From the NCBI RefSeq assembly GCF_003382285.1, contig NZ_QTJR01000001.1, forward strand, positions 434,001 to 498,000: a DNA stretch of 64,000 bases, written 5' to 3'. The notes below the pieces were generated by a model. The model saw nothing but the letters and a program-made list of their open reading frames with translations. It did not search any database and had not been told where the DNA came from. Positions 1-18,337 of this stretch are shown one piece after another. The position numbers and the translations under genes were made by a program. Within the stretch, counting starts at the first letter, position 1, and each line of letters opens with the position of its first letter. The stretch is from Lysobacter soli (lineage in GTDB: Bacteria; Pseudomonadota; Gammaproteobacteria; Xanthomonadales; Xanthomonadaceae).

Positions 1-3000
1 TTCGTCCAGGAAGATGTCGGCGTTGTAGATGAAGCCGCCCGACAGGCCCGTGTCCTGTTCGACGAACCACAGGCCCAGGTCCTGCGTGGATGCAGTCTGG
101 AACACCGGATAGCGCTCGTGCGTGAGCGGTCCCCATTCGCACATGCGCTGGCGGATGTCCTGGAACGAGAACAGCGCGTGATACAGCACCGCGCCGCCTT
201 CCCGGCTGCGCACGCTCAGCTCGCGCACCAGGTCTTCGAGCCGGATGTCCGGATGCGCGAAGCTGTCCAGCACGACGTCCTTCACCTGCTTCACGGCCTG
301 CGCGAAAGTCATCGATGGATCGATCTCCATGCGCAGCGGCAGCAGGCTGGTGAAGTAGCCCATCAGGTTCTCGACTTCGGCCGTGTTGCGCCCGCGCACC
401 GGCGTGCCGACGATCAGCTCGCGCAGGTTCGACGTGCGGCTGATCAGCGCGAAGTACGCGGTGAGCAGCACCATGTACAGCGTCGCGTCGACCTTGCGCG
501 CGGTCTCGTGCAGCGCCGCGGTCACGTCGCTGGCGACGGTGATGCGATGCGTGACGCCGCGCCCCGACATGCCCGGGCGACGCGGCAGGTCGGTCGGGAG
601 CGCTTCGATCGCGTGGCCGACGCCGCCCAGCCGCTCGCGCCAGAACGCCAGCTGCTTGGCGTATTCCGGGCCTTGCAGCCAGTCGCGGTGCCACGCGGAG
701 AAATCCGCGTACGTCACCGTCAGTTCCGGCAGCTTCGGCTCGCGCTTCCCCAGCTGCGCGGCGTAGAGCTCGGCCATGTCGGTGTACATCAGGTCGAACG
801 ACCAGCCGTCCCAGATCAGGTGATGCGTCATGAAGAACCACACGTGCTCTTCCGGCCCGAGGCGGAACAGCCGCGAGCGGATCAGCGGCGCGCGATCGAG
901 TTCGAACGGCGTCTGGATGAGCGCGTCCATGCGGCGGGAGACTTCTGCCTCGCGCTCGTCTTTCGGGAGATGGCTCACGTCGACGACGTCGGTGATGTCG
1001 ACATCGACCACGTCGTGCACGATCTGCATCGGCTCGCCGTCGATGAGGCCAATGGTCGTGCGCAGCACGCTCTGGCGCTGGATCATCGCGTTCAGCGCGG
1101 CCTGGAACGCATCCAGCTCCAGCGGTCCGCGCAGACGATGCGCGCTGGGCGTGTTGTAGGTGATCTGGCCGGGGTTGAACTGTTCGAGCAGGTACAGCCG
1201 CTCCTGCATGACCGACATCGGCCCGCGCGTGCGATCGGTGAGCGGCTTGATCGGCTCGCGCGCAGGCAGCGCCTCGCCGTCCATGCCCTGCACCATCCGC
1301 GCAAGCTTGGCGACGGTCGGGCCGTCGAACAGCGCACGCAGCGACAGCGTGATCCCCAGTTCCTTGTTGATGCGCGAGGTCAGCTGCGCGGCGAGCAGCG
1401 AATGCCCGCCTAGCGAGAAGAAATCATCGTCGACGCCGACTTCCGCGACGCCAAGGACTTTCGCCATGGCATCGGCGATCGTGCGTTCCAGCGCATTGCG
1501 CGGCGCGACGCGTTCGCCGGCCAGCTTCACGGTCAGGTCGGGCGCAGGCAGCGATTTGCGGTCGATCTTGCCGTTGGGCAGCAGCGGGATCGCATCGAGG
1601 AACAGGATGTGCTGCGGGATCATGTAATCGGGCAGCGACCCCTTGAGGTACGACACGAGCGCCGCTTCGTCGAGTGCACCGCCCTCGCCCACCACATACG
1701 CCACCAGACGCACGTCGCCGGGGCGATCCTCGCGCGCGACCACGACCGCGCGCGCGACCTGCGCATGCGCCGCAAGCAGCGCTTCGATCTCGCCCAGTTC
1801 GATGCGATAACCGCGCACCTTCACCTGGAAATCCAGGCGTCCCTGGTGTTCGAGCACGCCGTCCTGGCGCCAGCGGCCGCGATCGCCCGTGCGATACAGC
1901 AGCGCGCCCTTCGACGCCGCGAAGGGATCTGCCACGAAGCGCTCGGCCGTGAGCTCCGCGCGATCGAGATAGCCCAGCGTCACGCCTTCGCCGCCGATCC
2001 AGATCTCGCCCGGCACGCCGAGCGGGCACAGCTCGCCGCGCGGATCGAGGATCCACACCTGCGTGTTGTCGATCGGACGACCGATGTGGATGTCCGACGC
2101 CGACGTCACGCGCGAACACGTCGACCACACCGTCGTTTCGGTCGGACCGTAGACGTTCCACAGCGAGCCGCAGCGCGTGAGCAGCTGCGACGCCAGGTCC
2201 GCCGGCAGCGCTTCGCCACCGCACAGGATCGTGAAGTTCGCATTGCCCTGCCATTCGGCATCGAGCAGCAGGCGCCACGATGCCGGCGTCGCCTGCATCA
2301 CGGTCGCGCCGCTGCTGGCGATCAGCGCTTTGAGCGCGACGCCGTCGGCCGCGGTGACGCGGTCGGCGAGCACGACGCGCGCGCCCACGCTCAGCGGCAG
2401 CAGCAGTTCGAGCACGGCGATGTCGAAGGACAGCGTGGTCACCGCAACGAGGCGATCCTCCGCGCCCAGGCCCGGTTCCTTCGCCATGCTCGACAGGAAG
2501 TTGCTGACTGCGCGGTGCGGCACCTGCACGCCTTTCGGGCGACCGGTCGAACCGGAGGTGTAGATGACGTAGGCGACCGATTCCGGCTGCGCCGCGCCAG
2601 CGTCGCGACCGATGCGCGAGGTCGGCAGCGAGGCGAGTTCATCCTGCAACGTGTCGAGCGCGAGCACCGGGCGGCCGCGCAGATCGAAGTGGTCGGCGTG
2701 CCTGCTCGTCGTCAGCAGCGCGGCCAGGCCGGCGTCGCTGGCCATGTACGAGAGGCGTTCGGCCGGGAAATTCGGATCCAGCGGCACGTAACCGGCGCCG
2801 GCCTTCAGCACGCCGAGCAGCCCTGCGAGCATGTCCACGCCGCGGTCGAGCACGAGGCCGACCAGCGAACCGCGATGGACGCCGCGCGCACGCAGCAGGT
2901 GCGCGATGCGATTGGCGCGCGCTTCGAGTTCGTCGTAGCGCACGTGCTCGTCGTTGAATTCGACGGCGATGCGGTCGGGCGTGCGGTCGCACTGGCGTTC

Positions 3001-4491
3001 GAACACCTCGTGCATGCGGCGTTCGCGATCGAACGGCACTGGCGCCGGCTGCAACGCCTGCAGCTCCGCACGCGCGTTTTCGGACACGACGGAGAGGCGA
3101 CCGAACGGCAGGTCCGGGCGCGCGACGGCCTCGCGCAGCAGCGTTTCGTACGCGGCCATCCAGCGGCGGATCGTCGCGTTGTCGAACAGGTCGGTGTTGT
3201 ACTGGCATTCCAGCCGCATGCCGCCCTGCACCTGCACGGCGTTGACGAACAGTTCGAAGTTCTCGTAACTGCGCGGGTTGGTGATCAGGCGCATGCCCAG
3301 GCCATGGAAGCCCGTGCTCTCCTGATCCATCGCCTGGTCGATGTTGAACATCACGCTGCACAGCGGAAGGCGCGCGGGATCGCGCTGCAGCGGCAGCTTC
3401 TTCAGCAGCGTGCCGAAGGTGTAGCGCTGGTGTTCGATGGCGTCCAGCAGCGTGGACTGCGCGCCGCCGAGCGCCTGCTCGAAAGGCTGCGCGTGGTCGA
3501 GTTCAAAGCGGAGCGGCAGCAGGTTCACGCAATGGCCGACGAGGTGGTCATGGCCGTCCACCGACTGCCCGGCGGCGGGGATGCCGATGACCACGTCGTT
3601 CTGCGACGTCAGGCGCGACAGCAGCCCGGCGAAACCGGCGAGCAGCGTCGCGAACAGGCTCGCGCCCTGGCGCGCGCCGAGGCGGCGCACGGCGGCGACA
3701 AGATCGTTGTCGAGAAGGTGATCCTCGCGGATCGACGGGAACGTGCGGCGCGTTGGGCGCGCGCGGTCCGTCGGAAGATCGAGGATCGGCCCGCCATCGA
3801 AGAAGCGCGACAGCCAGTACGCTTCATCGCTGCGATAGGTTGCGCCCTGCGGATGTTCGGCTTCGGCCAGCGCGTAGTCGGCGAAGGATTCGGCGGGCGG
3901 AAGCGCCTGCGCCGCATGGCCTACCGCCTGCGAGTACAGCGTGCCCAGTTCGCGCACGATCACCCACCACGACCAGCCATCGCACACGATGTGGTGCGCG
4001 GTGAGCACCAGGTGGTGATGCGCGGGGGCCAGGCGCAGCAGGTCCGCGCGGAACAGCGCACCGTGGTCCAGATCGAACGGCGTTTCCACGACCTCGCGCG
4101 CGTGCGCGACCACGCGAGCGTCGCGCTCGGCATCGTCCAGCGACGACAGGTCGATCAACGCGAGGTCGATTTCGCGCTCGTCGTTGACGCACAGCGTGCG
4201 GCCGTCCGGTCCGAAGTTCGCGCGCAGGATGTCGTGGCGCGCGACAAGGCCACGCAACGCATCGCGCAGCGCGTCTGCGTCCAGTTCGCCGCGGAAATCC
4301 AGCGAGATCGATTCGTTGTACGCCAGCGATGCATCCACGCCGAGCTGGTCGGCGAGCCAGACTTCGCGCTGCGGTTCGGTGGTGGGCGCTACGCGCGACA
4401 GCGTGCCTTCGGCGAACGGATCGTAGTCGACCGTCGGGTCCTCGGGCACGGCGCCGGGAAACAGGCCTTTGTCCGATGCGGCTGCATTCAT
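1..4491 (-). CDS. Nonribosomal peptide synthetase, C-A-T-C..., partial (3' end beyond window)
   Basis: Extends a peptide chain by one amino acid and starts the next elongation step. 1497 codons are visible; the C-terminus lies outside the window. Domains in order: condensation (about 20-440, active site HHIVCDG at 166-172), adenylation (about 465-960, YTSGSTGRPKG at 644-654), carrier protein (GGHSLLA, phosphopantetheine Ser 1031), and a second condensation domain (HHLIWDG at 1223-1229) cut by the window edge. The specificity-pocket residues, aligned by eye, read D-I-L-Q-L-G-V-V-W, close to the published glycine code DILQLGLIWK, so glycine is the inferred substrate. The ATG overlaps the stop of the upstream synthetase as ATGA, so the two genes are translationally coupled. 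No epimerisation or thioesterase domain is visible here; termination functions must lie further left. The family call is certain; the substrate is an inference. Confidence 0.95.
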   Translation of the reverse strand, partial: MNAAASDKGLFPGAVPEDPTVDYDPFAEGTLSRVAPTTEPQREVWLADQLGVDASLAYNESISLDFRGELDADALRDALRGLVARHDILRANFGPDGRTLCVNDEREIDLALIDLSSLDDAERDARVVAHAREVVETPFDLDHGALFRADLLRLAPAHHHLVLTAHHIVCDGWSWWVIVRELGTLYSQAVGHAAQALPPAESFADYALAEAEHPQGATYRSDEAYWLSRFFDGGPILDLPTDRARPTRRTFPSIREDHLLDNDLVAAVRRLGARQGASLFATLLAGFAGLLSRLTSQNDVVIGIPAAGQSVDGHDHLVGHCVNLLPLRFELDHAQPFEQALGGAQSTLLDAIEHQRYTFGTLLKKLPLQRDPARLPLCSVMFNIDQAMDQESTGFHGLGMRLITNPRSYENFELFVNAVQVQGGMRLECQYNTDLFDNATIRRWMAAYETLLREAVARPDLPFGRLSVVSENARAELQALQPAPVPFDRERRMHEVFERQCDRTPDRIAVEFNDEHVRYDELEARANRIAHLLRARGVHRGSLVGLVLDRGVDMLAGLLGVLKAGAGYVPLDPNFPAERLSYMASDAGLAALLTTSRHADHFDLRGRPVLALDTLQDELASLPTSRIGRDAGAAQPESVAYVIYTSGSTGRPKGVQVPHRAVSNFLSSMAKEPGLGAEDRLVAVTTLSFDIAVLELLLPLSVGARVVLADRVTAADGVALKALIASSGATVMQATPASWRLLLDAEWQGNANFTILCGGEALPADLASQLLTRCGSLWNVYGPTETTVWSTCSRVTSASDIHIGRPIDNTQVWILDPRGELCPLGVPGEIWIGGEGVTLGYLDRAELTAERFVADPFAASKGALLYRTGDRGRWRQDGVLEHQGRLDFQVKVRGYRIELGEIEALLAAHAQVARAVVVAREDRPGDVRLVAYVVGEGGALDEAALVSYLKGSLPDYMIPQHILFLDAIPLLPNGKIDRKSLPAPDLTVKLAGERVAPRNALERTIADAMAKVLGVAEVGVDDDFFSLGGHSLLAAQLTSRINKELGITLSLRALFDGPTVAKLARMVQGMDGEALPAREPIKPLTDRTRGPMSVMQERLYLLEQFNPGQITYNTPSAHRLRGPLELDAFQAALNAMIQRQSVLRTTIGLIDGEPMQIVHDVVDVDITDVVDVSHLPKDEREAEVSRRMDALIQTPFELDRAPLIRSRLFRLGPEEHVWFFMTHHLIWDGWSFDLMYTDMAELYAAQLGKREPKLPELTVTYADFSAWHRDWLQGPEYAKQLAFWRERLGGVGHAIEALPTDLPRRPGMSGRGVTHRITVASDVTAALHETARKVDATLYMVLLTAYFALISRTSNLRELIVGTPVRGRNTAEVENLMGYFTSLLPLRMEIDPSMTFAQAVKQVKDVVLDSFAHPDIRLEDLVRELSVRSREGGAVLYHALFSFQDIRQRMCEWGPLTHERYPVFQTASTQDLGLWFVEQDTGLSGGFIYNADIFLDE

Positions 4492-7400
4492 GCGCTCACC
4501 TTCATGTACTTGCCCGGCTGCTCCGGGTTCGGCACGAACCACGCGGGCGTGCCATCCGGTTCGCGGCCAAGTCGCGCACCGGGCACGACGGGCTTGCTGG
4601 CGTCCATTACCGTCTTCGGCGTCGCGGCACGACGCGGAAGCAGCTCCATGTCCTGCAGTTCGGCCACCGCATCCTTGAAGGCGGCGGCGATGCGCGCGAT
4701 GTCCTCATCGCTGTGCGCGGTGGTGATGAAGCACGGGAAGTTGTCGAGGATGTGGATGCCGCGCATGCGCATCGACGCGAACAGCAGGTCCTGCAGCGGG
4801 TGCGCCTCGTGCCAGTGCGTCTTCCACACCGACGCGTACTGCTTCACCGACACCGGTGCACCGACGTCGGCGCAGTAGGCGTTGATGTCCGCGGCCAGCG
4901 CTTCGGCCTTGGCGTTGAGGCGCTTCTGCAGTTCGCCGCCATCGGCCTTGAAGTGCTCCAGCACCGCCTTCGCCGCAACCAGCGCGAGCGGATGGCGCAC
5001 GAACGTGCCGGCGAAGTACGTCACGCCGACGGTGGGCACCGAATCGTCGCCGTACTGCCAGTGGCCGCCGTCCAGCGCGTCCATGTACTCGCGCTTGCCG
5101 GCGATCACGCCGATGGGGAAGCCGCCGCCGACGACCTTGCCGTAGGTCGCGATGTCGGCCTTGATGCCGAAGATCGCCTGCACGCCGCCCGGATTCGAGC
5201 GGAAACCGGTGACCACTTCGTCGAAGATCAGCAGCGCGCCGTTGTCCTGCGTGAGCTGGCGCAGTTCCTTGAGGAAGTCGACCGGACGGAAGTCCAGGCG
5301 GCGGCTCTGCACGGGTTCGACGAGCACCGCGGCGATCTCGTGGATGCGCGACTTGATGATCTCCATCGCCTCCGGCGTGCCGTAGTCGAGCACGAGCACG
5401 TTCTCGGCGGTGTTGCGCAGGATGCCCGGCGCGGCCGGCACGGCGCGCAGCGACTTGGTGCCGCGCACGATCACTTCATCGACGATGCCGTGGTAGGAGC
5501 CCGTGAACAGCACCACCGTGCTGCGTGCGGTGATGGTGCGCGCGATGCGCAACGCGCCGAGCACGGCTTCCGAACCGGTGTTGCACAGCGCGGCGCGATC
5601 GTGTCCGGTGAGTTCGCACACGAGCTTGGCAACGTCGCCCGCGACCGGATGCTGCGGGCCGATCTCGTAACCCTTGTCGAGCTGATCGCGCACCGCATCG
5701 AGCACGAAGTCCGGCTGCCAGCCGAACAGGCTCATGCCGAAGCCGTTGAGCGCATCGACGTACTCGTTGCCGTCGATGTCGAACACGCGCGAGCCCTTCG
5801 AACGCTCGACGACGATCTGGTAGACGATTTCCTTCGTCAGCGGACGGAAGCCGTTGACCACGCGCGGATCGGCCAGCTGCGCGCGGTGGGCCTGCGTGTA
5901 CTCCTTCGACTTGCGCGTGCGCGCGACGTAGCGGTCCATGAAGGCGTCGAGCTTGGCCTTCTGCTGCGGCGACAGGTCGGTGTCGACCTGGCTCTCGATG
6001 CGCGCGATGGCACCGAAGGCCTTCTTCACGTCGTACTTCTGCTGCACGGCGCCGGTGTCTTCCTCTCCTTCGGCGGGCTTCGGCGGCGCGACGGGCTGCG
6101 GCGCAGGCGCGGCAACGGCCGGCGCGGGAGCGGCGGCGACGGGAGCAGCGGCAACCGGAACAGCCGCCGGCGCTGCGACGCCGCCGGACAGCAGCGCCAA
6201 CTGCTGCGCCATCAGCTGCATCTGCTGCGCGATGACCTGGCGCGTGAAGTCGTTGCCGCCGTCCAGCGCGGGCAGCGCGACGGGCGCCATCGCCACCATC
6301 TGTGCGGCGGCGACCGGCGCGACGGCCACGGCCGCCACGGGCGCGGGGGCCGGCGCGGCTTCGGCCGGCAGTGTCGCGTCGAGCATGCCGGCCAGGCGAT
6401 CCAGGCTGCTGCAATCGCCCATGAGCTGGCGGAAGTTCACCGGCACCTCGAACGTCTTCTGCAGCTGCACGGCGACCTGCGTCAGCATCAGGCTGTCCAG
6501 GCCGAGTTCGATGAAATTGGTGTCCGCGTCGGCGTCGCTCATGTCGAAACCGGCGACGTTCTCGAACAGGCCGCGCAGTTGCCCGACCAGGCGTTCGCGA
6601 CGGCCGGGAGCGGGCGCGGCGGGGACGGTGGCGGCGGCGGGCACGGCTGTAAGGGACGCGGACGGCATGACGGGCTCCAGTACGGTGTTGGTTCGTGCGG
6701 CGGTGGCGACGGCGGGGTGTGGGACGACGTTGCCCGGACTCGCAGCAACCGCCTCCACCCAATAACGTTGTCTCTCGAACGGATAGGTCGGCAGTCGCAC
6801 GCGATGGCGGATCGCACGCGTATCGAAGGTCGACGGATCGACCGCCGCGCCCTGGCTCCAGAGCTTTCCGGCGGCGGCCAGCAGGTCGCGGCGCTCGCTC
6901 GACGGGTGGTCGGCGAGGCTGGCGACGGTCGCGATGCGCTGCTTCTGTACCACCGGCTGCTGCCGCGCGAGCGCGTTCAGCGTGCCGCGCGGGCCGACTT
7001 CCAGCAGCACGCGCGAGGCGGCATCGGCGTCGCCCAGCAGCGCCTGCAGCGCGCTGGAGAAGCGCACCGGCTCGCGCAGGTGGCGCGCCCAATAGTCGGG
7101 GGAAGTGGCTTCGTCCGCCGTCAGCACCGCACCGGTGACGGTGGAGACGATCGGCCGCGTCGGCGCGTTCAGGCGCATCGCGGCGACGGCGTCGCGGAAG
7201 GGCGCGACCACCGGTTCCATCATCGCCGAGTGGAACGCGTGCGAGGTCCGCAGCGCCCGGCAGGCGATGCCCTCGCCTTCCAACTGCGCCTGGAACGCGG
7301 CGACGGCATCGGATTCGCCCGCGACCACGCAGGCGAGCGGCGAGTTTTCGGCAGCGAGCGACAGCGTCGCCGGCAACCGGTCGCGTACCGCATCGGCGGG

Positions 7401-10400
7401 AAGCCGGATCGACAGCATCGAGCCGGCCGGCTGCGCCTGCATCAGCGCACCGCGACGCGCGATGAGGTGCAAGGCGTCGCGCAGTTCGAACACGCCGGCC
7501 AGCGTCGCGGCGACGAACTCGCCGATGCTGTGGCCGATCATCATCGCCGGCGCGATGCCGCGGCTCATCCACCACTTCGCCAGCGCGTATTCGATGGCGA
7601 ACGTCGCCGGCTGCATGATCGAGGTCGGCAGCAGCGCTTCGGCGTCGTCGGCGAACAGGCGTTCGCGAAGACTGAAGCCGAGGTCGTCGCGCAGCAGCCC
7701 GGCGCATTCGTCCAGCGCGTCGCGGAAGACGGGCTCGGCCTCGTACAGGCTGCGGCCCATGCCGGGATACGTGGCGCCCTGCCCCGGGAACATGAAGACG
7801 ACTTCGGCCGCGCGCGCCGGGCGGCTGCGCAGTGCATCGGCCTGCGTGTCGGGAGCGCGCAGCGTTTCGATTGCGGTCGCCGCGTCGTCCGCCGCAATCG
7901 CGATGCGGTGCGCGAAGGCCTTGCGCCCAACCGCGAGCGTCCATGCGACATCGGCGAGGTTCGCGTCGCGATTCGCGTCGAGGTGATCGGCCAGCCGCGC
8001 CGTCGCCGCGCCCAGGGCCGCCGGCGTGCGCGCCGACAGCACGAGCAGCTGAGGCCCGCGCGCCTCGTCGGACTCGGGCAGCAGCGGCGCTTCTTCGAGC
8101 ACGGCATGCGCGTTCGTGCCGCCGAGGCCAAAGGAACTGACGCCCGCACGGCGCGGGGCGTCGCCCTCGCGTTCCCACGCGCTCATGCGCGCATTCACCA
8201 CGAACGGCGTGCTGGCGAAGTCGATCGTCGGGTTCGGCGATTCGAAATGGATGCTCGCGGGAATGCGCTTCTCGTGCAGCGACAGCGCGGTCTTGATCAC
8301 GCCCGCCGCGCCGGCCGCCGTCACCATGTGGCCAACGTTGCTCTTCAGCGAACCGATGCGGCAGAAGCCCGCATCGCCGGTGGAACGGCGGAATGCGCGT
8401 GTCAGGCCTTCGATCTCGATGGGATCGCCGAGCGGCGTCGCCGTGCCGTGCGCTTCGACATACGTGATGCTGCGCGCGTCCACGCCCGCCTTGTCGTGCG
8501 CGAGCGCGATGACCGCCGCCTGCCCTTCGCTGCTGGGCGCGGTGAAACTGGCGCGATTGGCGCCGTCGTTGTTGAGCGCGCTACCGCGGATCACCGCATA
8601 GACGGGATTGCCGTCGGCGATCGCGTCGGACAGCCGCTTGAGCAGCACCACCGCCGCGCCATCGCCGAACACCGTGCCCTTCGCATTCGCGTCGAAGGTG
8701 CGCGTGTGGCCGTCGGGCGACAGCATCGAACCTTCCTGGTAGAGGTAGCCGCTGCGCGGCGGGCACGTCACCGCGATGCCGCCGGCCAGCGCCATGTCGC
8801 ACAGGCCGGACTGCAGGCTTTCCACCGCCTGCGCGATGGCGACCAGCGAGGTCGAGCACGCCGTGTGCACGCTGACTGCGGGCCCGGTGAGGTTGAGCTT
8901 GTGCGCCACGCGCGTGGCGATGTAGTCCTTCTCGTTGCCGAGCATCACCTGCAGCGCGCCGACGCGGTTCACCAGATCCGGATGCGCGGACACGTGGCGC
9001 TGGAAGTACGTGGCGTTGTTCATGCCGGCGAAGATGCCGGTGACCGACGAACCGGTCGCGTCGGGCGCATGGCCGCCGCGCTCCAGGCACTCCCAGCACA
9101 GTTCCAGGAAGATGCGCTGCTGCGGATCCATCAGCTCCGCTTCGCGCGGGCCGATGCCGAAGAACGCCGCGTCGAACAGTTCGACGTTGTCGATCACGCC
9201 GCGCGCGGCGACGTAGCCGGGATCGTTGCGGTCGGCCGCGCTCACCGCCGGATCGAGTTCGTCGATGCGGAACTGGGTGATCGAATCGCGGCCTTCGCAC
9301 AGGTTGTTCCAGAAGCCTTCCACGTCATCCGCGCCCGGGAAACGCCCGGCCATGGCGACGATGGCGATCGGCTCGCGCGCGTCGACCGTGCGGCGCGTCG
9401 GCGCCTGCGCGGCTTGGACGCCGTCGAGCACCGCCGCAAGGCGCGCAGGCGTGGGGTTCTGGAAGATCGTGGGCGCGGCCACGCGCGGGCCGGCGGCGTC
9501 GGCCTGCCAGCCCTCCACGCGGATGTGCTCGGCCAGGCGCACGGCCAGCAGCGAACTGCCGCCGAGTTCGAAGAAGTTGTCGTCGCGACCGACGCCGTCG
9601 ATGTCGAGCAGCGTGCCGAACGCGGTGCACAGCTTCGTTTCGATTGCGCTGATCGGCGCTGCGAAATCGGAAGTGAGTTCGGGCCGGCGGCGATCCGGTG
9701 CGGGCAAGGCGCGGCGGTCGATCTTGCCGTTGGTCGTCAGCGGAAGCTCGTCCATCCGCACGTAGCGCGTAGGCACCATGTACGGCGGCAGCGCCGCGGC
9801 GAGATGCGCGCGCAGCTGCGGCGCGTGGGCTTCCACGCCGGTATCGACGTAGTACGCGACCAGGCGCTTCTCGCCGGGGAAATCGGCGCGCGCGACGACC
9901 ACGCACGAGGCGATCGCGGGATGACGCGCGAGCACGGACTCGATCTCGGTCAGTTCGATGCGATGGCCGCGGATCTTCACCTGCGCGTCGGTGCGGCCGA
10001 CGAATTCGATCAGGCCGTCCTCGCGCAGCCGCACCTGGTCGCCGGTGCGATAGAGCACGTCGCCGTCGAGGAAGGGATTGGGCACGAAGCGCTCCGCATT
10101 GAGTTCGGGACGTGCGAGATAGCCGCGCGCAACGCCCGCGCCGCCCACGCACAGCTCGCCGATCACGCCGGCAGGCAGCAACTGGAGGCGACGGTTCAGC
10201 ACGTAGGCGGTGGTGTCCTGCATGGCGCGGCCGATCGGGATCGACGCCGCACCCGGGGGCAGGTCGCGCGGGATCGCGTAGGACGTGCACATGATCGTGC
10301 ACTCCGTCGGACCGTAACCGTTGTGCAGCTGCAGCTGCGGCGCGATGGCCTGCATGCGGCGGATGTGGTCGACCGAGAGCGTTTCGCCGCCGGCGATGAG

Positions 10401-11789
10401 GTCGCGCATGTTCGCGAAGATCGTCGCGTCCTCGTCCACGACGGCGTTGAACAGCGCCGCGGCCATGATCCCGGCGTTGGCATCGTGGCGCGCAATCGTG
10501 TCGCGCAGGCGCGCGGCGGTGGGCGCCACTTCGTCGTGCACGACGATCGTGCCGCCGTTGAACAACGGCCCCCACAGCTCGAGGCCGGAGATGTCGAAGC
10601 CGAGCGGCGCCTGGTGCAGCATGCGCGTGTCCGCGTCGAGCCTGACGTAGTCGACGCCGCGTAGGCGACGCACTAGCGAGCGGTGGCGGATTTCCACGCC
10701 CTTCGGCACGCCGGTCGAGCCGGAGGTGAAGAGCACGTACGCGAGCGAGTCCCCATCGGTGCCGGGCTCGTCGGCCAGCGGCGCATCGTCGCCATGCACG
10801 TTCACGCGCAGCGCATCGCGCGGCAGCGCCGGCGCATGCAGCTCGGGATCGACGACGATGGCGCGAACGCGCGCGTTGTCGACCATGAAGGCGACGCGTT
10901 CGGCCGGCAGCGCGAGATCGATGGGCAGATAGGCACCACCGGCCTTGATGACGCCGAGCAGCGCGACGACCGCGTCAAGCGAGCGCGGCAGCGCGACGCC
11001 GACGATCTCGCCGACCTTCACGCCCGCAGTGCGCAGGCGTGTGGCGAGCGAAGCAGCGCGACGATCCAGTTCGTCATAGGTGATGGCGGCATCGCCATGC
11101 ACGACCGCAGTCTTCTCGGCGAACGCGGCCAGCGTCTGCGCGAAACAGGCGTGGACGGTATCGAATTCATTGCGTGCGGGCGGCGCGATGGCCCACTCGT
11201 CGATCTGGCGCGCGCGGTCGGCCCTATCCAGCGCGTCGATGTCCGACAGCGGCAGGTGGGCGTCGGCGGAGAGCATGCGCAGGCTGCGGACGACGGCCTC
11301 GCCGACCAGCGCCGCGGCTTCGCGCGAAAGCGGCGCGCGGAAGTCGACGCAGAGGCGTTCGGCGTCGATGCGCCAGGTCGATGCGGCGAAGTCGGGGATG
11401 TCGCCGCGCTCATCCGAAACCGCCCACGCGGACGGGTGCGGGGCCGCGATCGGATCGGCGGCATCGGTCGTGTCCGCCAGGGCCGCGCGGTCGATCGAGC
11501 TCGCCACGCGAGCCTGATGCCATGCATCGCCGCGTCGCACCGTTGCGAGGACGTCATCGGCGCCCGACAGCCACGACTCGACCGACACCAGCGCCGCGAC
11601 CAGCACGTCACGCGCGCGGTCATCGCTATGCAGCGCGGCTGCAACATCGGACGGCAGCGCGAACGCGAGCGACTGCGCGGCATCGTCGCCTGCAGCGGAA
11701 TGCTGCGGAAGTACATCCAGCAGCGGCGAATCGATGGCCGGCATCGGATTGCCGGTGTCTTCCCGTGCCGCCACTGCCCGCGTACCCAT
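4488..11789 (-). CDS. Hybrid NRPS-PKS-aminotransferase: A-T-KS-AT-ACP-AMT
   Basis: 2433-residue first enzyme of the assembly line. Domains in order: an N-terminal condensation-like remnant (1-185), adenylation (about 185-690, FTSGSTGVPKG near 352), carrier protein (LGGSSLLAV, Ser about 745), ketosynthase (about 800-1225, TACSTS with Cys 978), acyltransferase (about 1325-1600, GHSIGEF Ser 1421, and HAFH near 1516, which usually marks malonyl-CoA), ACP (LGLDSLM, Ser 1766), an Ala/Pro-rich linker (about 1800-1890), and a class III PLP aminotransferase (about 1925-2385, TYGKVVGGG with Lys 2218). No ketoreductase, dehydratase or enoylreductase is present. The architecture resembles the PKS-aminotransferase part of mycosubtilin/iturin synthetases, but the loading unit is an amino-acid-type A domain. 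The start at 11789 is chosen for the AGGTGGAGAAGGAG stretch just upstream; an ATG-free extension to 11834 lacks this signal. The stop overlaps the next gene by ATGA. Confidence 0.95.
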   Translation of the reverse strand: MGTRAVAAREDTGNPMPAIDSPLLDVLPQHSAAGDDAAQSLAFALPSDVAAALHSDDRARDVLVAALVSVESWLSGADDVLATVRRGDAWHQARVASSIDRAALADTTDAADPIAAPHPSAWAVSDERGDIPDFAASTWRIDAERLCVDFRAPLSREAAALVGEAVVRSLRMLSADAHLPLSDIDALDRADRARQIDEWAIAPPARNEFDTVHACFAQTLAAFAEKTAVVHGDAAITYDELDRRAASLATRLRTAGVKVGEIVGVALPRSLDAVVALLGVIKAGGAYLPIDLALPAERVAFMVDNARVRAIVVDPELHAPALPRDALRVNVHGDDAPLADEPGTDGDSLAYVLFTSGSTGVPKGVEIRHRSLVRRLRGVDYVRLDADTRMLHQAPLGFDISGLELWGPLFNGGTIVVHDEVAPTAARLRDTIARHDANAGIMAAALFNAVVDEDATIFANMRDLIAGGETLSVDHIRRMQAIAPQLQLHNGYGPTECTIMCTSYAIPRDLPPGAASIPIGRAMQDTTAYVLNRRLQLLPAGVIGELCVGGAGVARGYLARPELNAERFVPNPFLDGDVLYRTGDQVRLREDGLIEFVGRTDAQVKIRGHRIELTEIESVLARHPAIASCVVVARADFPGEKRLVAYYVDTGVEAHAPQLRAHLAAALPPYMVPTRYVRMDELPLTTNGKIDRRALPAPDRRRPELTSDFAAPISAIETKLCTAFGTLLDIDGVGRDDNFFELGGSSLLAVRLAEHIRVEGWQADAAGPRVAAPTIFQNPTPARLAAVLDGVQAAQAPTRRTVDAREPIAIVAMAGRFPGADDVEGFWNNLCEGRDSITQFRIDELDPAVSAADRNDPGYVAARGVIDNVELFDAAFFGIGPREAELMDPQQRIFLELCWECLERGGHAPDATGSSVTGIFAGMNNATYFQRHVSAHPDLVNRVGALQVMLGNEKDYIATRVAHKLNLTGPAVSVHTACSTSLVAIAQAVESLQSGLCDMALAGGIAVTCPPRSGYLYQEGSMLSPDGHTRTFDANAKGTVFGDGAAVVLLKRLSDAIADGNPVYAVIRGSALNNDGANRASFTAPSSEGQAAVIALAHDKAGVDARSITYVEAHGTATPLGDPIEIEGLTRAFRRSTGDAGFCRIGSLKSNVGHMVTAAGAAGVIKTALSLHEKRIPASIHFESPNPTIDFASTPFVVNARMSAWEREGDAPRRAGVSSFGLGGTNAHAVLEEAPLLPESDEARGPQLLVLSARTPAALGAATARLADHLDANRDANLADVAWTLAVGRKAFAHRIAIAADDAATAIETLRAPDTQADALRSRPARAAEVVFMFPGQGATYPGMGRSLYEAEPVFRDALDECAGLLRDDLGFSLRERLFADDAEALLPTSIMQPATFAIEYALAKWWMSRGIAPAMMIGHSIGEFVAATLAGVFELRDALHLIARRGALMQAQPAGSMLSIRLPADAVRDRLPATLSLAAENSPLACVVAGESDAVAAFQAQLEGEGIACRALRTSHAFHSAMMEPVVAPFRDAVAAMRLNAPTRPIVSTVTGAVLTADEATSPDYWARHLREPVRFSSALQALLGDADAASRVLLEVGPRGTLNALARQQPVVQKQRIATVASLADHPSSERRDLLAAAGKLWSQGAAVDPSTFDTRAIRHRVRLPTYPFERQRYWVEAVAASPGNVVPHPAVATAARTNTVLEPVMPSASLTAVPAAATVPAAPAPGRRERLVGQLRGLFENVAGFDMSDADADTNFIELGLDSLMLTQVAVQLQKTFEVPVNFRQLMGDCSSLDRLAGMLDATLPAEAAPAPAPVAAVAVAPVAAAQMVAMAPVALPALDGGNDFTRQVIAQQMQLMAQQLALLSGGVAAPAAVPVAAAPVAAAPAPAVAAPAPQPVAPPKPAEGEEDTGAVQQKYDVKKAFGAIARIESQVDTDLSPQQKAKLDAFMDRYVARTRKSKEYTQAHRAQLADPRVVNGFRPLTKEIVYQIVVERSKGSRVFDIDGNEYVDALNGFGMSLFGWQPDFVLDAVRDQLDKGYEIGPQHPVAGDVAKLVCELTGHDRAALCNTGSEAVLGALRIARTITARSTVVLFTGSYHGIVDEVIVRGTKSLRAVPAAPGILRNTAENVLVLDYGTPEAMEIIKSRIHEIAAVLVEPVQSRRLDFRPVDFLKELRQLTQDNGALLIFDEVVTGFRSNPGGVQAIFGIKADIATYGKVVGGGFPIGVIAGKREYMDALDGGHWQYGDDSVPTVGVTYFAGTFVRHPLALVAAKAVLEHFKADGGELQKRLNAKAEALAADINAYCADVGAPVSVKQYASVWKTHWHEAHPLQDLLFASMRMRGIHILDNFPCFITTAHSDEDIARIAAAFKDAVAELQDMELLPRRAATPKTVMDASKPVVPGARLGREPDGTPAWFVPNPEQPGKYMKVSA

Positions 11790-12231: not shown

Positions 12232-12924
12232 ATGAGCCAGGACTTCGCGCTTCTGTACATGCAGCTTGGACTGCATCCGGACTGCAGCCTCGAAGACCTC
12301 AAGCGCGCGTATCGCATCCGCGTGGGCGAACTGCATCCGGACCGGCACCTGGATCGCCCGGCCTCCGATGACGCCAACGCCGCCCTCACCGAACTCACCG
12401 CGCTGTATTCGGGCGCCATCCGTTTCCACCGCATCCACGGCCGCCTGCCGGGCTCCACGCCACGCGGGCCGACAGTGTCTTCGCGTGGCGCACCCGAGCC
12501 CGCGCACTTCACGACGACGGCCTTGCGCGCCGCACCGCGCGAAAGCGATCGCGCCACGCAGAGCATGACGCCGCGCATCGCGGTGCTCAGCGTGCTCGTG
12601 CTGGTGGTGGTGATGGTGGTGCTGCACTGGTCGGAAACCGCGCAGGTCGCGCCGCACGCGGACAGCGGCGACGCCGTGGCCGCCGCGGTCGACCCCAATA
12701 CGCCGCGGCTGGAGCTGGGCATGGAGGAAGCGGCCGTCGTCGCGATCCAGGGGCCGCCCGAGCGGGTGCAGGACGACGTCTGGAACTACGGTTCCTCGTG
12801 GGTGCGCTTCGAGGACGGCCACGTGGTCGACTGGGCGAGCGTGCCGCCAAACCGGCTGATGACGCTGACGCCGCGGCCGGTCAAGGAAGACGAGAACGGC
12901 GAGGAAGAGGCGTTCGGGCCGTGA
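12232..12924 (+). CDS. Membrane-anchored J-domain protein with BamE-like C-terminal segment
   Basis: 230 residues. The N-terminal 70 residues form a DnaJ-type J domain with the diagnostic HPD at 35-37 in ELHPDRHLD, expected to stimulate an Hsp70 ATPase. One hydrophobic helix (RIAVLSVLVLVVVMVVL, about 115-131) anchors the protein. The C-terminal part (about 155-215), with LELGMEEAAVVAIQGPP and a VRFEDGHVVDW strand, resembles the SmpA/BamE-type fold that follows an outgoing strand in outer-membrane assembly lipoproteins. This orientation puts the J domain in the cytoplasm and the C-terminal domain in the periplasm. Transcribed alone, divergently from the synthetase genes. A weak AAGGGGG ribosome binding site precedes the ATG. 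The J domain is clear; the BamE-like assignment is by eye and tentative. Confidence 0.85.
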   Translation: MSQDFALLYMQLGLHPDCSLEDLKRAYRIRVGELHPDRHLDRPASDDANAALTELTALYSGAIRFHRIHGRLPGSTPRGPTVSSRGAPEPAHFTTTALRAAPRESDRATQSMTPRIAVLSVLVLVVVMVVLHWSETAQVAPHADSGDAVAAAVDPNTPRLELGMEEAAVVAIQGPPERVQDDVWNYGSSWVRFEDGHVVDWASVPPNRLMTLTPRPVKEDENGEEEAFGP

Positions 12925-13151: not shown

Positions 13152-14546
13152 TTACCTGGACCCGCGCTGGAACAACACCACTTCGACCGTCTGCAACAGG
13201 ATGATCAGGTCGAACACCAGGCCGTGGTTCTTGACGTAGAACAGGTCGAATTTCAGCTTCTCTTCCGCGTCGCGCACGGACGCGCCGTACGGGTACCTCA
13301 ATTGCGCCCAGCCCGTCAGGCCGGGCTTCACGCAATGACGCACGGCGTAATAACGGATCTCGCGGCTGAGCATGTCGACGAACTGCGGACGTTCCGGGCG
13401 CGGGCCGACGATGCTCATCTCGCCGCGCAGGATGTTGAACAGTTGCGGCAATTCATCCAGTCGCGTCAGGCGGATGAACTTGCCCACGCGCGTGGTGCGG
13501 TCGTCGCCGCGTTGCGCCCATCGCGCCACGCCGTCGCCTTCGGCATCCACGCGCATGCTGCGGAACTTGATCAGCTCGAACGGCCGCCCGCCTTCGCCGA
13601 TGCGCGTCTGCTGGTAGAGGATCGGGCCGCTGGATTCCAGGCGGATCAGCGCTGCCACCAGCACCATGAAGGGCCACGCGATCAGCAGCAGCGCCGACGC
13701 CGCGAGCACGTCGAACAGCCGCTTGTTCATGCAGCGCGACGTCGAATGATCGAAACCGCCCGAGAACACCAGCCACGACGGATCGCACAGGTTCGTGGTG
13801 ACCAGGCCCGCTTCGCGTTCGAAGAACGTGGACAGATCGGTCATCGCCACGCCGCGCTGCACGCAGGTCAGCATCTCCTCCATCGGTAGCCCGCCGCGAC
13901 GTTCGTCCGGCGCGACCACGACTTCGCTGATCTGCAAGCGATGCACGATGTCGGCCAAGCCATCGGGCGCGGCAACGCGCATCGAGTCGGGCACGCAGGC
14001 TTCCTGCCCTTCGATCGGCACGAAGCCGATCAGCGAGAACGCGCGCCGATCGCTGCCGCGACGCATGCGCGTGTTGATCAGGTCCGCGTTATGGCCCGCG
14101 CCAAGCACCAGCACGCGGCGTTTGAACAGGTCGCCGCGGAACACGTGCATCACGCAGAAGCGCAGCGCCGCCATGCCGATCAGGCCAAGGATCATCGCGA
14201 TCACGATGACGCCTCGACCGATGTAGGCGTTCGGGATCAGGTAATACAGCACCATCAGCCCGATGCCGCCGATGGCGAAGGACACCAGCAGCCGCAGCGC
14301 GAACTCGAAGCGATTGAGCCGCACATGCACCTGGTACAACCCCAACGCCGCCATCGCGGTGGTGACGAACGCCGCCACCAGCAACGCGCGCACGGTGAGG
14401 TTCTCGGAGAAGATCTCGTGGCCTTCGGGGTCGTTCATGAAGCGCAGCCACGCCGCGCCCATCACCGCCGCCATCACCAGCAGCACTTCGAGCAGCCACA
14501 GAAGCAGCAACGCCCGGTTCTTCAGACTCGCCTTTCCGAACATCAT
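13152..14546 (-). CDS. Undecaprenyl-phosphate sugar phosphotransferase, PEP-CTERM/XrtA-type (EpsB_2-like)
   Basis: 464 residues. Expected to start an exopolysaccharide repeat unit by transferring a sugar-1-phosphate to the lipid carrier at the inner membrane. Four N-terminal membrane helices (about 10-130) are followed by a CoA-binding-like domain with VLVLGAGHNADLI, one more membrane helix near 290, and the bacterial sugar transferase domain with FELIKFRSMRVDAEG, LTRLDELPQLFNIL and GPRPERPQF. The overall pattern matches the family described as sugar transferase of the PEP-CTERM system (TIGR03013). Length is normal for the family. AGGAG lies nine bases before the ATG. No exosortase or PEP-CTERM substrate is in the window, so the rest of that system must lie elsewhere if present. 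The PPTase gene lies upstream on the same strand, 135 bases away. Confidence 0.93.
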   Translation of the reverse strand: MMFGKASLKNRALLLLWLLEVLLVMAAVMGAAWLRFMNDPEGHEIFSENLTVRALLVAAFVTTAMAALGLYQVHVRLNRFEFALRLLVSFAIGGIGLMVLYYLIPNAYIGRGVIVIAMILGLIGMAALRFCVMHVFRGDLFKRRVLVLGAGHNADLINTRMRRGSDRRAFSLIGFVPIEGQEACVPDSMRVAAPDGLADIVHRLQISEVVVAPDERRGGLPMEEMLTCVQRGVAMTDLSTFFEREAGLVTTNLCDPSWLVFSGGFDHSTSRCMNKRLFDVLAASALLLIAWPFMVLVAALIRLESSGPILYQQTRIGEGGRPFELIKFRSMRVDAEGDGVARWAQRGDDRTTRVGKFIRLTRLDELPQLFNILRGEMSIVGPRPERPQFVDMLSREIRYYAVRHCVKPGLTGWAQLRYPYGASVRDAEEKLKFDLFYVKNHGLVFDLIILLQTVEVVLFQRGSR

Positions 14547-14681: not shown

Positions 14682-15428
14682 TCACGACAAGGACAACGAC
14701 CTTCCGCCGGCACTCCGGCCAGCGGGTGGATCGTGGGGATGCAATTGCAGGCATTCGACCGCGGCCTCGCGCGGCGCCGCTACGGCCGCGGTCCATCGCT
14801 CGCCTACATCGAGCATGGCCAGGCGCACGCTGCACGCCGCAGGAAGTTCCCGCGCGCTCCCGGCCAGGATGAATTCCCCGCCGGCGGCGGCGTGGAAACT
14901 GCACATCTCGCGCGCCAGGCCGATGCCCTCGGCCTTGAGCAGCGCTTCCTTGCGAACCCACAGCGCCAGCAGCGCACGACTGCGCGCCGGTTCGGGCAGG
15001 TTCGCCAGCGATTGGAGTTCGGACGGATGGCACACGCTCGTCGCGATGCCGGGCAATTCGGACGCGCGGAACGCGGCTTCGATGTCGATGCCGACCGGTC
15101 CGAGCGCGCAAAGCGCGAACGCGGCGACACCGTCGGCATGGCTCAGGCTGGTGTGCACGGCGTGGCCGTGCAGCGTGATGCCGGGCAGGTACGGCGCGCC
15201 TTCGGCATCGCGGGCGATCGTGATCGATTCCGGCGCGACGCCCAGCGACGCGGCCACGAACAGCCGGTGGAGCGCATAGGTCAGCGCGAGCGCTTCGCGG
15301 TCGTCGGCAAAACGCCGCTGGCCTGCGCGCTGGCGTTCGGAAGCGTCCAGCAGCGACCACGCCTCGTCGCGCCAGGGATGCCACGGGCGCAACGCGATGA
15401 CGGCGGTCGCACAGGCGCCGGGCGCCAT
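14682..15428 (-). CDS. 4'-phosphopantetheinyl transferase, Sfp type
   Basis: 248 residues from the chosen start. Transfers phosphopantetheine from CoA to the serine of carrier proteins. The two family signatures are present: VGIDIEAAF, whose acidic residues bind magnesium, and LWVRKEALLKAEGIGL. The segment HTSLSHADG corresponds to the substrate-binding region before the first signature. Three carrier domains in the neighbouring synthetases need this activity, so it is the obvious candidate activator, though a broad-range housekeeping role is also possible. The start is uncertain: the frame is open upstream to 15635, with an ATG at 15569 and a GTG near 15494. The ATG at 15428 is chosen because homology-like sequence (ATAVIALRPW) begins just after it. 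Confidence 0.9.
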   Translation of the reverse strand: MAPGACATAVIALRPWHPWRDEAWSLLDASERQRAGQRRFADDREALALTYALHRLFVAASLGVAPESITIARDAEGAPYLPGITLHGHAVHTSLSHADGVAAFALCALGPVGIDIEAAFRASELPGIATSVCHPSELQSLANLPEPARSRALLALWVRKEALLKAEGIGLAREMCSFHAAAGGEFILAGSARELPAACSVRLAMLDVGERWTAAVAAPREAAVECLQLHPHDPPAGRSAGGRSLSLS

Positions 15429-15686
15429 CGGCCCGCACGCGAACGCGTCGCGCAACGAGCACGCCGATGTTGCCTGTCGCCATGCGACCGCCACCTCGCC
15501 CCCTGTCCGGTCCTGCCGGTGCCTGCTCCGAATCGACGATCCGGATTCAACGAACACGAACGCAGCCATCGCTCGAAGGCGGACACGGCCGCGTCCGCGT
15601 CCTGTCGCGGCCCGCGAGTGCGTTAGGTGCATCAAGGCGACCGCGGGCGAAGCCGGCGGCCGTCACGCCAACGAACGAGTGAACGA

Positions 15687-17081
15687 ATGGACACGACCGA
15701 GATCGGGGAACGGCTGGTCCAGCGGGCCATCCTGGAATCGCACCGCGCAGACGGGGCCGCCCGCGCCGACATCGCCACGCACGACGAACCCGGCGTGGCC
15801 GCCTTGCCCACGCTGGACACGGTGCGCCTGGGCGTCGTCGGACTGGGGTACGTCGGACTGCCGCTGGCTGTGGCCTTCGGCCGCCGCTTCGACACGGTCG
15901 GTTTCGACATCAACGCGCAACGCGTGGTCGAACTGCGCGAAGGGCGCGACAGCACGCTGGAAGTCGATGCGGACGAACTCGCGCAGGCCAAGCGGCTGCG
16001 CTGCAGCAGCGACCTGGGGATGTTGCAGCGGTGCAACGTCTACATCGTCACGGTGCCCACGCCGATCGACGCCGCCAAGCGCCCGGACCTCGGCCCGCTG
16101 GTGCGCGCGAGCGAGGCGCTGGGCCAGGTGCTCAAGCGCGGCGACGTCGTGGTGTACGAGTCCACCGTGTATCCCGGCTGCACCGAAGAAGTCTGCGTGC
16201 CGATCCTGGAGCGCGCGTCCGGCCTGGTGTTCAACCGCGACTTCTTTGCCGGCTACAGCCCCGAGCGCATCAACCCGGGCGACAAGGAACATCGACTCAC
16301 GCGCATCCTGAAGATCACGTCGGGCTCGACGCCGCGCGCGGCGGATTTCGTCGATGCGCTCTACGGTTCGATCATCGAGGCCGGCACGCACAAGGCCAGT
16401 TCGATCAAGGTCGCGGAGGCGGCGAAAGTCATCGAGAACACGCAGCGCGATCTCAACATCGCGCTGGTCAACGACCTCGCGATCCTGTTCAACAAGCTCG
16501 GCATCGACACGCTGGAAGTGCTGCAGGCGGCGGGCACGAAGTGGAATTTCCTTCCCTTCCGGCCGGGGCTGGTCGGCGGCCACTGCATCGGCGTGGACCC
16601 GTATTACCTGACACACAAGGCGCAGGAGATCGGCCACCACCCCGACGTGATCCTCGCCGGCCGCCGCACCAACGACGGCATGGGTGCGTACATCGCCAGC
16701 GAAGTCGTGCGACTGATGGTGCGCCGTGGCATCAATCCCGTGCAGGCGCGCATTCTGGTGCTCGGGCTTGCGTTCAAGGAGAACTGCCCGGACCTGCGCA
16801 ACACGCGCGTGGTCGACATCGTCCACGCGCTGCGTGGCTACAACGCACAGGTCGACGTGCACGACCCATGGGTGAACGCGCACGATGCATCGCACGAGTA
16901 CGGACTGGCGATGAACGGTGCGCCGGAACACGGGTCATACGACGCGGTGATCGTCGCGGTCGCGCATCGCGAGTTCGCGCAACTCGGCGCCGACGGCGTG
17001 CGGGCGTACGGCAAGCCGACGTCGATCGTCTACGACGTGAAATACGTGCTGCCCCGCGACGCGGTGGACGGACGCCTGTGA
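15687..17081 (+). CDS. UDP-N-acetylglucosamine/galactosamine 6-dehydrogenase (WbpA/TviB-like)
   Basis: 464 residues. Oxidises a UDP-N-acetylhexosamine to the uronic acid with two NAD, for surface polysaccharide synthesis. A Rossmann NAD site is seen at [14 protein letters not shown]. The catalytic cysteine lies in [11 protein letters not shown], the usual motif of the UDP-glucose/GDP-mannose dehydrogenase superfamily. The sequence [19 protein letters not shown] and the C-terminal domain ([18 protein letters not shown]) fit the WbpA/WbpO/TviB branch rather than plain UDP-glucose dehydrogenase. The frame is open upstream to 15627; the ATG at 15687 gives the usual family length. The next gene starts two bases after its stop, so the two form an operon. 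Exact substrate epimer is not resolvable from sequence by eye. Confidence 0.93.
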
Positions 17082-17083
17082 CG

Positions 17084-18130
17084 ATGAAAGTCCTCGTAAC
17101 GGGAACCGCCGGCTTCATCGGGTCGCACGTCGCGCAGGCGCTGCTGGCGCGCGGCGACGAGGTGATCGGCTTCGACAACCTCAACGACTACTACGACGTC
17201 GCGCTCAAGCGCGCGCGACTGGCGCGCTTCGCGGATCATCCCGCGTACACGCATGTGCACGGCGACCTGGCCGATCGGGATGCCGTTGAAGCCCTGTTCC
17301 GCGAACATCGCCCGCAGCGCGTGGTGAACCTGGCCGCGCAGGCCGGCGTGCGCTACGCGGCGGAGAATCCGCACGTGTACGTGGCGAGCAACGTGACCGG
17401 CTTCCTGCATGTGCTCGAAGGCGCGCGGCGCCATGGCGTCGAGCATCTGGTGTATGCATCGACCAGTTCGGTCTATGGCGCGAACACCGCGATGCCGTTC
17501 TCGGAACATCAATCCACCGAACATCCGCTCACGCTCTACGCCGCCACCAAGAAGGCGAACGAGGCGATGGCGCACAGCTACGCGCACCTTTACGGCGTGC
17601 CGTGCACGGGTCTGCGGTTCTTCACCGTCTACGGCCCGTGGGGTCGGCCGGACATGGCGCTGTTCCTGTTCACGCGCGCGATCCTCGCGGGCGAGCCGAT
17701 TCCGGTGTTCAACCACGGACGCCACAAGCGCAGCTTCACCTACATCGACGACATCGTCGCCGGCGTGGTGCGCGCGCTCGATCGCGTGCCGGGCGTAGAC
17801 GACACGTGGAATGGCACGACTCCCGATCCTTCGAGCAGCGGCGTTGCGCCGTACCGGCTCTACAACATCGGCAGCGCGCAGAGCGTCGAACTGCTGCGCT
17901 ACATCGAGGTGCTGGAGCAGTGCCTGGGACGCAAGGCGACGCTGCGCATGCTGCCGCTGCAGGCCGGCGACGTGCCGGCGACCGAGGCGGACTGCACCGA
18001 TCTCGCACGCGACATGGGCTACGCGCCGAGCGTGACGGTGGAGGATGGCGTGGCGCGGTTCGTCGCGTGGTATCGCGAGTACTACGGTGTGCGCGACACG
18101 CGCGACGCGTCGGCGGCCGTCGCGGTGTGA
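17084..18130 (+). CDS. NAD-dependent nucleotide-sugar epimerase (UDP-glucuronate 4-epimerase-like)
   Basis: 348 residues, extended short-chain dehydrogenase fold. The NAD motif is GTAGFIGSHVA at the N-terminus, and the catalytic Ser/Tyr/Lys set is seen in YASTSSVYGAN and YAATKKANE. GLRFFTVYGPWGRPDMALF is typical of CapI/UDP-glucuronate 4-epimerases. It starts two bases after the dehydrogenase stop and probably acts on its product, giving a UDP-uronic acid or its N-acetyl form for exopolysaccharide. A strong bidirectional terminator follows. The family is certain; the precise sugar is inferred. Confidence 0.92.
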   Translation: MKVLVTGTAGFIGSHVAQALLARGDEVIGFDNLNDYYDVALKRARLARFADHPAYTHVHGDLADRDAVEALFREHRPQRVVNLAAQAGVRYAAENPHVYVASNVTGFLHVLEGARRHGVEHLVYASTSSVYGANTAMPFSEHQSTEHPLTLYAATKKANEAMAHSYAHLYGVPCTGLRFFTVYGPWGRPDMALFLFTRAILAGEPIPVFNHGRHKRSFTYIDDIVAGVVRALDRVPGVDDTWNGTTPDPSSSGVAPYRLYNIGSAQSVELLRYIEVLEQCLGRKATLRMLPLQAGDVPATEADCTDLARDMGYAPSVTVEDGVARFVAWYREYYGVRDTRDASAAVAV

Positions 18131-18220: not shown

Positions 18221-18297
18221 TGGCGCGCCCGGAGAGATTCGAACTCCCGACCACCAAGTTCGTAGCCTGGTGCTCTATCCAGCTGAGCTACGGGCGC
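18221..18297 (-). tRNA. tRNA-Arg (anticodon ACG)
   Basis: 77 bases with encoded CCA. The acceptor stem GCGCCCG pairs with CGGGCGC. The T-loop TTCGAATC and the anticodon loop CTACGAA are clear; the anticodon is at 18261-18263. ACG is expected to be edited to ICG. Its own promoter lies just upstream. Confidence 0.97.
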
Positions 18298-18308
18298 TGA
18301 GTTGAAAA

Positions 18309-18337
18309 ATTATGAAGGATCGTTGCCGATTCGTCAA
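18309..18337 (-). promoter_or_regulatory. Sigma-70 promoter of tRNA-Arg
   Basis: On the minus strand, TTGACG (18337-18332), a 17-base spacer and CATAAT (18314-18309), placing transcription start about five bases before the mature 5' end. Confidence 0.75.

Follow-up and report, generated by a model that had tools for sequence, protein, structure and literature searches.

What does a polyketide synthase (PKS) that carries an aminotransferase and no ketoreductase (KR) build in Lysobacter soli, and what is it doing among genes for an exopolysaccharide (EPS)? A preliminary description of the window, by which we mean the whole 64,000-nucleotide stretch analysed here, framed the gene as a lone Lysobacter product cluster and predicted a beta,gamma-diamino acid, provided that the starter is an alpha-amino acid. 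The explanation that we find best is a mini assembly line resident in an EPS locus, whose short unit would be passed on to the EPS; we put its probability at roughly 0.4.

A KR-less PKS module with conserved active sites

The PKS gene lies on the minus strand at 4488..11789 and encodes 2433 residues in the order (degenerate C stub)-A-T-KS-AT-ACP-AMT, as read from Pfam matches, the start site and catalytic residues. The preliminary coordinates are plausible, as 11789 is an ATG with a GGAG-type Shine-Dalgarno-like site upstream. Within the frame 4488-11834 (-), Pfam places AMP-binding at residues 232-573 with its C-terminal part at 630-704, ketoacyl-synthase at 821-1198, acyl transferase at 1346-1639 and Aminotran_3 at 2006-2318, together with two PP-binding stretches, the best of them at 1752-1818; a KR has no Pfam match anywhere in this frame. 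On the DNA, all on the minus strand, the module comprises a starter adenylation (A) domain at 9705..11141, a ketosynthase (KS) at 8241..9374 with Cys/His/His, an acyltransferase (AT) at 6918..7799 with an HAFH motif, which we take to be malonyl-type, an acyl carrier protein (ACP) at 6381..6581, which like the AT was identified by Pfam and alignment, and a class-III aminotransferase domain (AMT) at 4635..5981, recognised by a structure match and its Lys/Asp/Glu residues. The N-terminal stub (11175..11744, (-)) has no Pfam match in the window's own protein and is perhaps a remnant of a condensation (C) domain: a weak Condensation match precedes the A domain in two relatives (L062, E 2.6e-4; L128, E 1.4e-9; L and G numbers are our handles for loci and genomes).

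An alignment of 46 PKS proteins of more than 1900 residues, the window's own included, bears out the KR-less order seen earlier. In 45 of the 46, the KS retains Cys/His/His, the AT its serine and HAFH motif, and the ACP its serine, and 222-327 residues lie between that motif and the ACP serine; the 46th frame begins later. A KR would not fit into this gap. The serine motif of the first carrier (T1) was present in 30/37 proteins by motif scan, and Pfam finds the same domains, again without KR, in the PKS proteins of relatives L062, L085, L081 and L058. An inactive AMT had been raised as a possible objection; judged by sequence, its Lys/Asp/Glu residues are intact in all 46 of these AMT-bearing proteins. 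The closest solved structures are those of the mycosubtilin MycA AMT (6kfu/6kfm, E 1.6e-119), in line with the likeness to the mycosubtilin type drawn in the preliminary description. A KR acting in trans was also considered. The sole Pfam KR match among the scanned locus genes is a galE-type epimerase (L004:18169-19404) that scores 28.9 bits against KR (cut-off 22.6) and 185 bits against Epimerase, so we read it as a relative within the SDR group and rejected it as a candidate.

The PKS-type AMT occurs in 56 of the 79 loci fetched, in records from Pseudomonadota, Bacteroidota and Verrucomicrobiota; the remaining 23, aminotransferases of 27-35% identity, were left out. Such conservation across loci rules out chance or a misread frame as the source of the architecture. 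A C domain of a nonribosomal peptide synthetase (NRPS) follows the AMT in 53 of the 56 loci, and in the other three (L067, L068, L083) the AMT lies no more than 200 bases from the end of its contig. The closest named records are L. changpingensis and L. arvi, 97% identical in the best segment, and in a phylum-wide sample the AMT was found at E<=1e-140 in 6/398 genomes, L. soli included. One contig recorded as Nostoc sp. CHAB 5824 (L075) holds a PKS-AMT 73% identical to the window's and is probably contaminating proteobacterial DNA.

The starter is likely an alpha-amino acid

Ten-residue A-domain codes were read from one alignment of 102 A domains (54 from NRPS frames, 48 from PKS frames), in which 41 of the 48 PKS-frame domains stand at the starter place; the seven found elsewhere were left out. 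Asp235 and Lys517, which we take to be the alpha-amino-acid signature of A domains, are kept in 41/41 starters, the window's own included. The code of the window, DILMIGGIMK, is shared with four near relatives (L038, L039, L040, L070; 5/41 in all). Most frequent is DAxLxG(G/P)TFK (24/41), followed by DVQ(L/Q)(I/M)A(H/Q)VVK (7/41), DFWQIGMVHK (3/41) and DVWFMSLVDK (1/41), which we take, from the published code, to be Val/Ile-like, Pro, Thr and Ser, respectively; DLKCVGSDIK stands in one separate A-T protein (L122, 1/41). With Val-like starters, the window's A domain shares 44-57% of residues outside Lautropia and 38-39% within that genus; with Pro, Thr and Ser starters it shares 35-42%. Solved A domains were uninformative about the starter's identity, the top match, LgrA, aligning in two stretches. 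A starter swap is seen in L084, whose code is that for Ser: the KS is 75% identical to the window's and the A domain 38%.

But could the A domain load something other than an amino acid? In MycA of the mycosubtilin synthetase (PDB 6kfm, 6kfr, 6kfu), a homologous class-III AMT follows KS-AT-ACP without a KR, and the chain is begun with a fatty acyl group. Fatty-acyl starters are used by the known AMT modules with this domain order, and microginin synthetase likewise builds a beta-amino acid with an AMT on a PKS module. The same is reported for puwainaphycin synthetase; both synthetases resemble the window in this step and differ from it in their fatty-acyl starters. By analogy, the window's module would yield a plain beta-amino acid, and DILMIGGIMK is a code with no assigned substrate. 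Against this speak the Asp235/Lys517 pair in 41/41 starters and the Pro, Thr, Ser and Val-like codes of the relatives, and we consider a non-amino-acid starter improbable. The same residue pair sets the window, with its apparent amino-acid-type A domain, apart from MycA-type systems and their fatty-acyl starter. Since the signature is conserved and relatives carry amino-acid codes, the window's starter is likely an alpha-amino acid. The proviso of the preliminary description is thus likely satisfied, and a beta,gamma-diamino acid, predicted from sequence, becomes the natural expectation and our best reading of what the KR-less module would make.

A compact operon adds an NRPS and two hydrolases

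Downstream of the PKS, the NRPS gene covers 1..4491 of the window on the minus strand and runs on to G000:C1:432384. Pfam, the code and motifs give C-A-T-C-T-TE-T, with HHxxxDG found twice, LGGxS three times and GGSMGG once by motif scan. The A domain carries the Gly-type code DILQLGVVW (followed by Lys); this was read separately, because position 278 of the NRPS A domains is misaligned in the 102-domain alignment. From this code, the beta,gamma-diamino unit would probably be joined to glycine. The PKS heads four overlapping genes, PKS-NRPS-hydr2-hydr1, where hydr stands for alpha/beta hydrolase: PKS and NRPS meet in an ATGA overlap, NRPS and hydr2 in a similar start-stop overlap, and hydr2 and hydr1 overlap if hydr1 begins at a GTG there. 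A flippase (Polysacc_synt, Pfam) comes next on the operon strand. The best matches of hydr1 and hydr2 are TIGR03100 (70.7 bits, cut-off 168) and TIGR03101 (56.6 bits, cut-off 203), both well below cut-off, and neither hydrolase has a Pfam match at 1e-5. One match to hydrolase 1 (G169:C1:1979677-1980600) contains an in-frame TGA.

The NRPS ends differently elsewhere: C-A-T-C-A-T in Dyella, C-A-T-C-T in Lysobacter chinensis and Variovorax soli, and C-A-T-TE in the Bacteroidota locus L081. A terminal thioesterase raises the main alternative to an EPS role, namely that the TE of the window's NRPS, which ends in TE and a carrier, simply releases a free small metabolite (diamino-acyl-glycine or a TE-made lactam) that is exported, with the EPS genes as co-regulated neighbours or neighbours by shared ancestry. 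The ending in L081 would fit this, too. The surroundings of the operon bear on the choice.

An EPS locus resembling exosortase A loci

Upstream of the PKS and on its strand lie an EPS initiating polyprenyl-phosphate glycosyltransferase (GPT; 13152..14546, (-); TIGR03013 of the XrtA/PEP-CTERM system, 537 bits, cut-off 393) and a Sfp/HetI-like 4'-phosphopantetheinyl transferase (PPTase) with an uncertain start (14682..15635, (-)). The latter scores 52 bits against NF042922, far below the cut-off of 370, and its gene family is found in 19 of the compared loci. A DnaJ-domain protein (12232..12924, (+); Pfam DnaJ) sits between GPT and PKS. Beyond the PPTase-like gene follow the UDP-N-acetylglucosamine C-6 dehydrogenase TviB (15627..17081, (+); NF011729, 614 bits, cut-off 592) and an NAD-dependent nucleotide-sugar epimerase with an approximate start (17084..18130, (+); Pfam Epimerase, E 6.4e-58). 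The flank outside the window holds a TIGR03016 outer membrane protein (101.6 bits, cut-off 90.9), a TIGR03097-like ligase/polymerase below cut-off, a polysaccharide export gene (Poly_export) at C1:413658 and, by Pfam, glycosyltransferases, two polysaccharide deacetylases and a galE-type epimerase. A presumed chain-length gene (L007:4516-6768) is named from its sequence and has no Pfam match at 1e-5.

This inventory resembles the EPS loci of exosortase A (XrtA/PEP-CTERM) systems, with which the window shares the TIGR03013 GPT and the TIGR03016 outer membrane protein above cut-off and, as weaker relatives below cut-off, hydr1, hydr2 and the TIGR03097-like protein. It differs in that the L. soli genome has no match to exosortase (PF09721), which was found in 13/29 genomes of relatives, and in the added PKS-NRPS. 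The pyridoxal-phosphate decarboxylase TIGR03099 scores above cut-off in 3/47 genomes, L. soli not among them. That the PKS-NRPS replaces this XrtA decarboxylase was not upheld as a rule, because the two occur together in G028 and G162, about 30 kb apart on a single contig. The flank further encodes a beta-helix protein (L005:12694-14535, that is G000:C1:426694-428535; Pfam Beta_helix), whose C-terminal hydrophobic stretch and RKHRGRK tail resemble a sorting signal, though its own genome lacks an exosortase match. Genes for tRNA-Arg(acg), tRNA-Ser(gct) and tRNA-Thr(cgt) lie at 18221-18592 and 48231-48306 of the window, and alaS, recX, recA and lexA-like genes, named from sequence, come after the locus.

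Linkage to EPS genes across genomes

Is this setting peculiar to one strain? Among 197 genomes of the family, PKS-AMT was found in 40 (E<=1e-140), hydr1 in 49 and GPT in 68; four of 44 PKS genomes with 35-40% identity (G062, G115, G137, G189) were dropped from this count. Hydr1 is present in 38 of the 40 PKS genomes versus 11/157 others, and GPT in 39 of the 40 versus 29/157. Where the genes share a contig, hydr1 lies within 9.1 kb of the PKS in 34 of 36 pairs and GPT within 17.5 kb in 33 of 34. Fisher p-values overstate this linkage, because relatives share synteny by descent.

The export gene was compared across 63 clusters (40 from the family, 23 others) out of 69 handles; G197, G208, G210 and G211 were dropped because their coordinates repeat those of G148, G160, G141 and G106, and G198 and G199 because they have no cluster position. 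Poly_export shares the contig with 36 clusters and lies within 45 kb of 34 of them (34/63). In the other two it is farther along the contig (G038 is counted as far, and its contig may close over the origin); for 27/63 the contig, in some cases a short one, carries no Poly_export. Outside the family sample, a near Poly_export accompanies the cluster in Dyella, three Rhodanobacter, Pseudoxanthomonas, an unclassified Pseudomonadota record, one Burkholderiales record and two Verrucomicrobiota. Genes for exosortase A, XrtA amidotransferase, chain length and export, each above cut-off, occupy the opposite strand of the Burkholderiales contig; they begin about 12 kb beyond the NRPS, with the exosortase at about 30 kb. 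A sugar transferase and a flippase adjoin the PKS in one Verrucomicrobiota genome. The EPS setting is also seen in members of the Rhodanobacteraceae and in one Burkholderiales and two Verrucomicrobiota genomes.

The tight family linkage to GPT and EPS-type hydrolases and the recurrence of the setting in other lineages argue against a free metabolite. Pointing the other way, Poly_export is missing from the contigs of six Comamonadaceae-type, three Lautropia and two Rhodocyclaceae clusters, as well as one Rhodanobacter, one Burkholderiaceae and one Bacteroidota cluster. Other genes make up most of the flanks in Comamonadaceae and Lautropia. We rate a free, exported metabolite as only a little less probable than the EPS reading. 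The position of the unit among EPS genes in many related genomes hints that its product belongs to the polysaccharide rather than being a free antibiotic.

Two further families recur beside the PKS. A Cupin_8/JmjC-like protein (assignment of family F6 tested on L041) lies near it in L041, L042, L044, L045, L047, L056, L058 and L061, upstream in seven of the eight, and could hydroxylate the amino acid or the product. A GDSL/SGNH hydrolase-like gene (family F7, tested on L071) flanks it in L071, L074, L077, L078, L079, L089 and L092, which are Lautropia and Variovorax-type loci.

Siblings without the aminotransferase

Eleven family genomes have hydr1 and GPT without PKS-AMT, and none of them has an AMT match at E<=1e-60. 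Ten of these loci were fetched; in the eleventh genome, G007, hydr1 and GPT lie on different contigs. Seven (L125-L131) carry A-T-KS-AT-ACP and then C-A-T between GPT and hydr1, without the AMT, as read by similarity and motifs and, for L125-L128, also by Pfam; the C-terminal tail that elsewhere follows the AMT is kept in L125, L127 and L128. L132 is a diverged PKS-NRPS, L133 has C-A-T alone, and L134 shows one A domain in a fetched stretch that stops short of GPT. In a midpoint-rooted KS-AT tree with 48 rows, three changes are needed to explain the AMT-less label: L128 groups with the AMT-bearing L084, the remaining six make up a clade that lies among AMT-bearing proteins, and L132 sits on a very long branch. 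With L128 apart from the other six, an ancestral AMT would have been lost on at least two occasions. Six of the seven AMT-less starters have the Thr code and one that for Ser; since such starters also occur alongside an AMT (L051, L085, L089, L084), the starter does not decide whether the AMT is present.

These siblings would be expected to leave the unit as a beta-ketone, and their existence at the same place raises the thought that the AMT is bypassed in the window, too. The intact AMT residues throughout the alignment speak against this, and we regard a bypass as very improbable. Beta-amination by the AMT accordingly stays part of the reading that we prefer, as a prediction.

Discussion

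The lone Lysobacter product cluster of the preliminary description gives way to a wider picture. The unit usually sits between an EPS GPT and EPS-type hydrolases, siblings occupy this place without an AMT, and the layout was catalogued in 2013. To our knowledge, no product is known for the KR-less PKS-AMT unit of three phyla. Table 2 of that 2013 survey (PMC3870968) lists A-CP-KS-AT-CP-PLP1 for Pedobacter heparinus C6XWU5 and similar entries, with Nrp-Mal-Gly-Pk as the predicted product of C6XWU5; this rests on domain predictions, and no product is given there, nor for related layouts in Thiocapsa and Salinisphaera. Layout and glycine agree with the window, and the section concerned does not mention an EPS setting. 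PMC11451712 mentions a Lysobacter hybrid that is uncharacterised and has a single cis-AT PKS module. It may be of the same kind as the window unit, which it resembles in this module; the section that describes it names neither an AMT nor an EPS setting. No report of a PKS-NRPS in an EPS locus was found among titles and abstract openings, a set with few subscription journals and bioRxiv preprints.

How might such an assembly line work? We propose that the PPTase primes the carriers and that an alpha-amino acid enters at the starter A domain. KS and AT would extend it with malonate, giving a gamma-amino-beta-ketoacyl-ACP. With no KR in the module, the AMT would aminate the beta-ketone to a beta,gamma-diamino acyl-ACP, the amino analogue of statine, and the first C domain of the NRPS would couple it to glycine. 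The second C domain, the extra carriers, the TE and the two alpha/beta hydrolases could then hand on a short diamino-acyl-glycine unit. Its likeliest recipient would be the EPS made by the surrounding flippase- and polymerase-type genes, for example through an amide formed with an amino sugar or uronic acid ahead of flipping, resulting in a cationic or zwitterionic polymer. No enzyme joining the unit to a sugar was identified. We rate the chances that the PKS-NRPS unit has an EPS-linked function as even, and covalent decoration of the EPS by the diamino-acyl-glycine unit as rather unlikely. A shade less probable still is the broadest version, in which a widespread class of EPS bears swappable short beta,gamma-diamino-acyl (or beta-keto) glycine units from dedicated PKS-NRPSs, its charge tuned by starter swaps (Val-like, Pro, Thr, Ser) and by loss of the AMT.

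Finally, what would this mean for the bacteria that carry the unit? If the EPS reading is true, mini PKS-NRPS lines would serve to vary polysaccharide surfaces chemically, a role seldom credited to them, and the locus would provide variants made by nature, with exchanged starters or a missing AMT, on a single conserved KS-AT core. Should the product instead be a free metabolite, a vicinal-diamine amino acid of an aminodeoxystatine-like kind would still be predicted from an ordinary cis-AT module, and from a KR-less PKS-AMT unit that occurs in records of three phyla.
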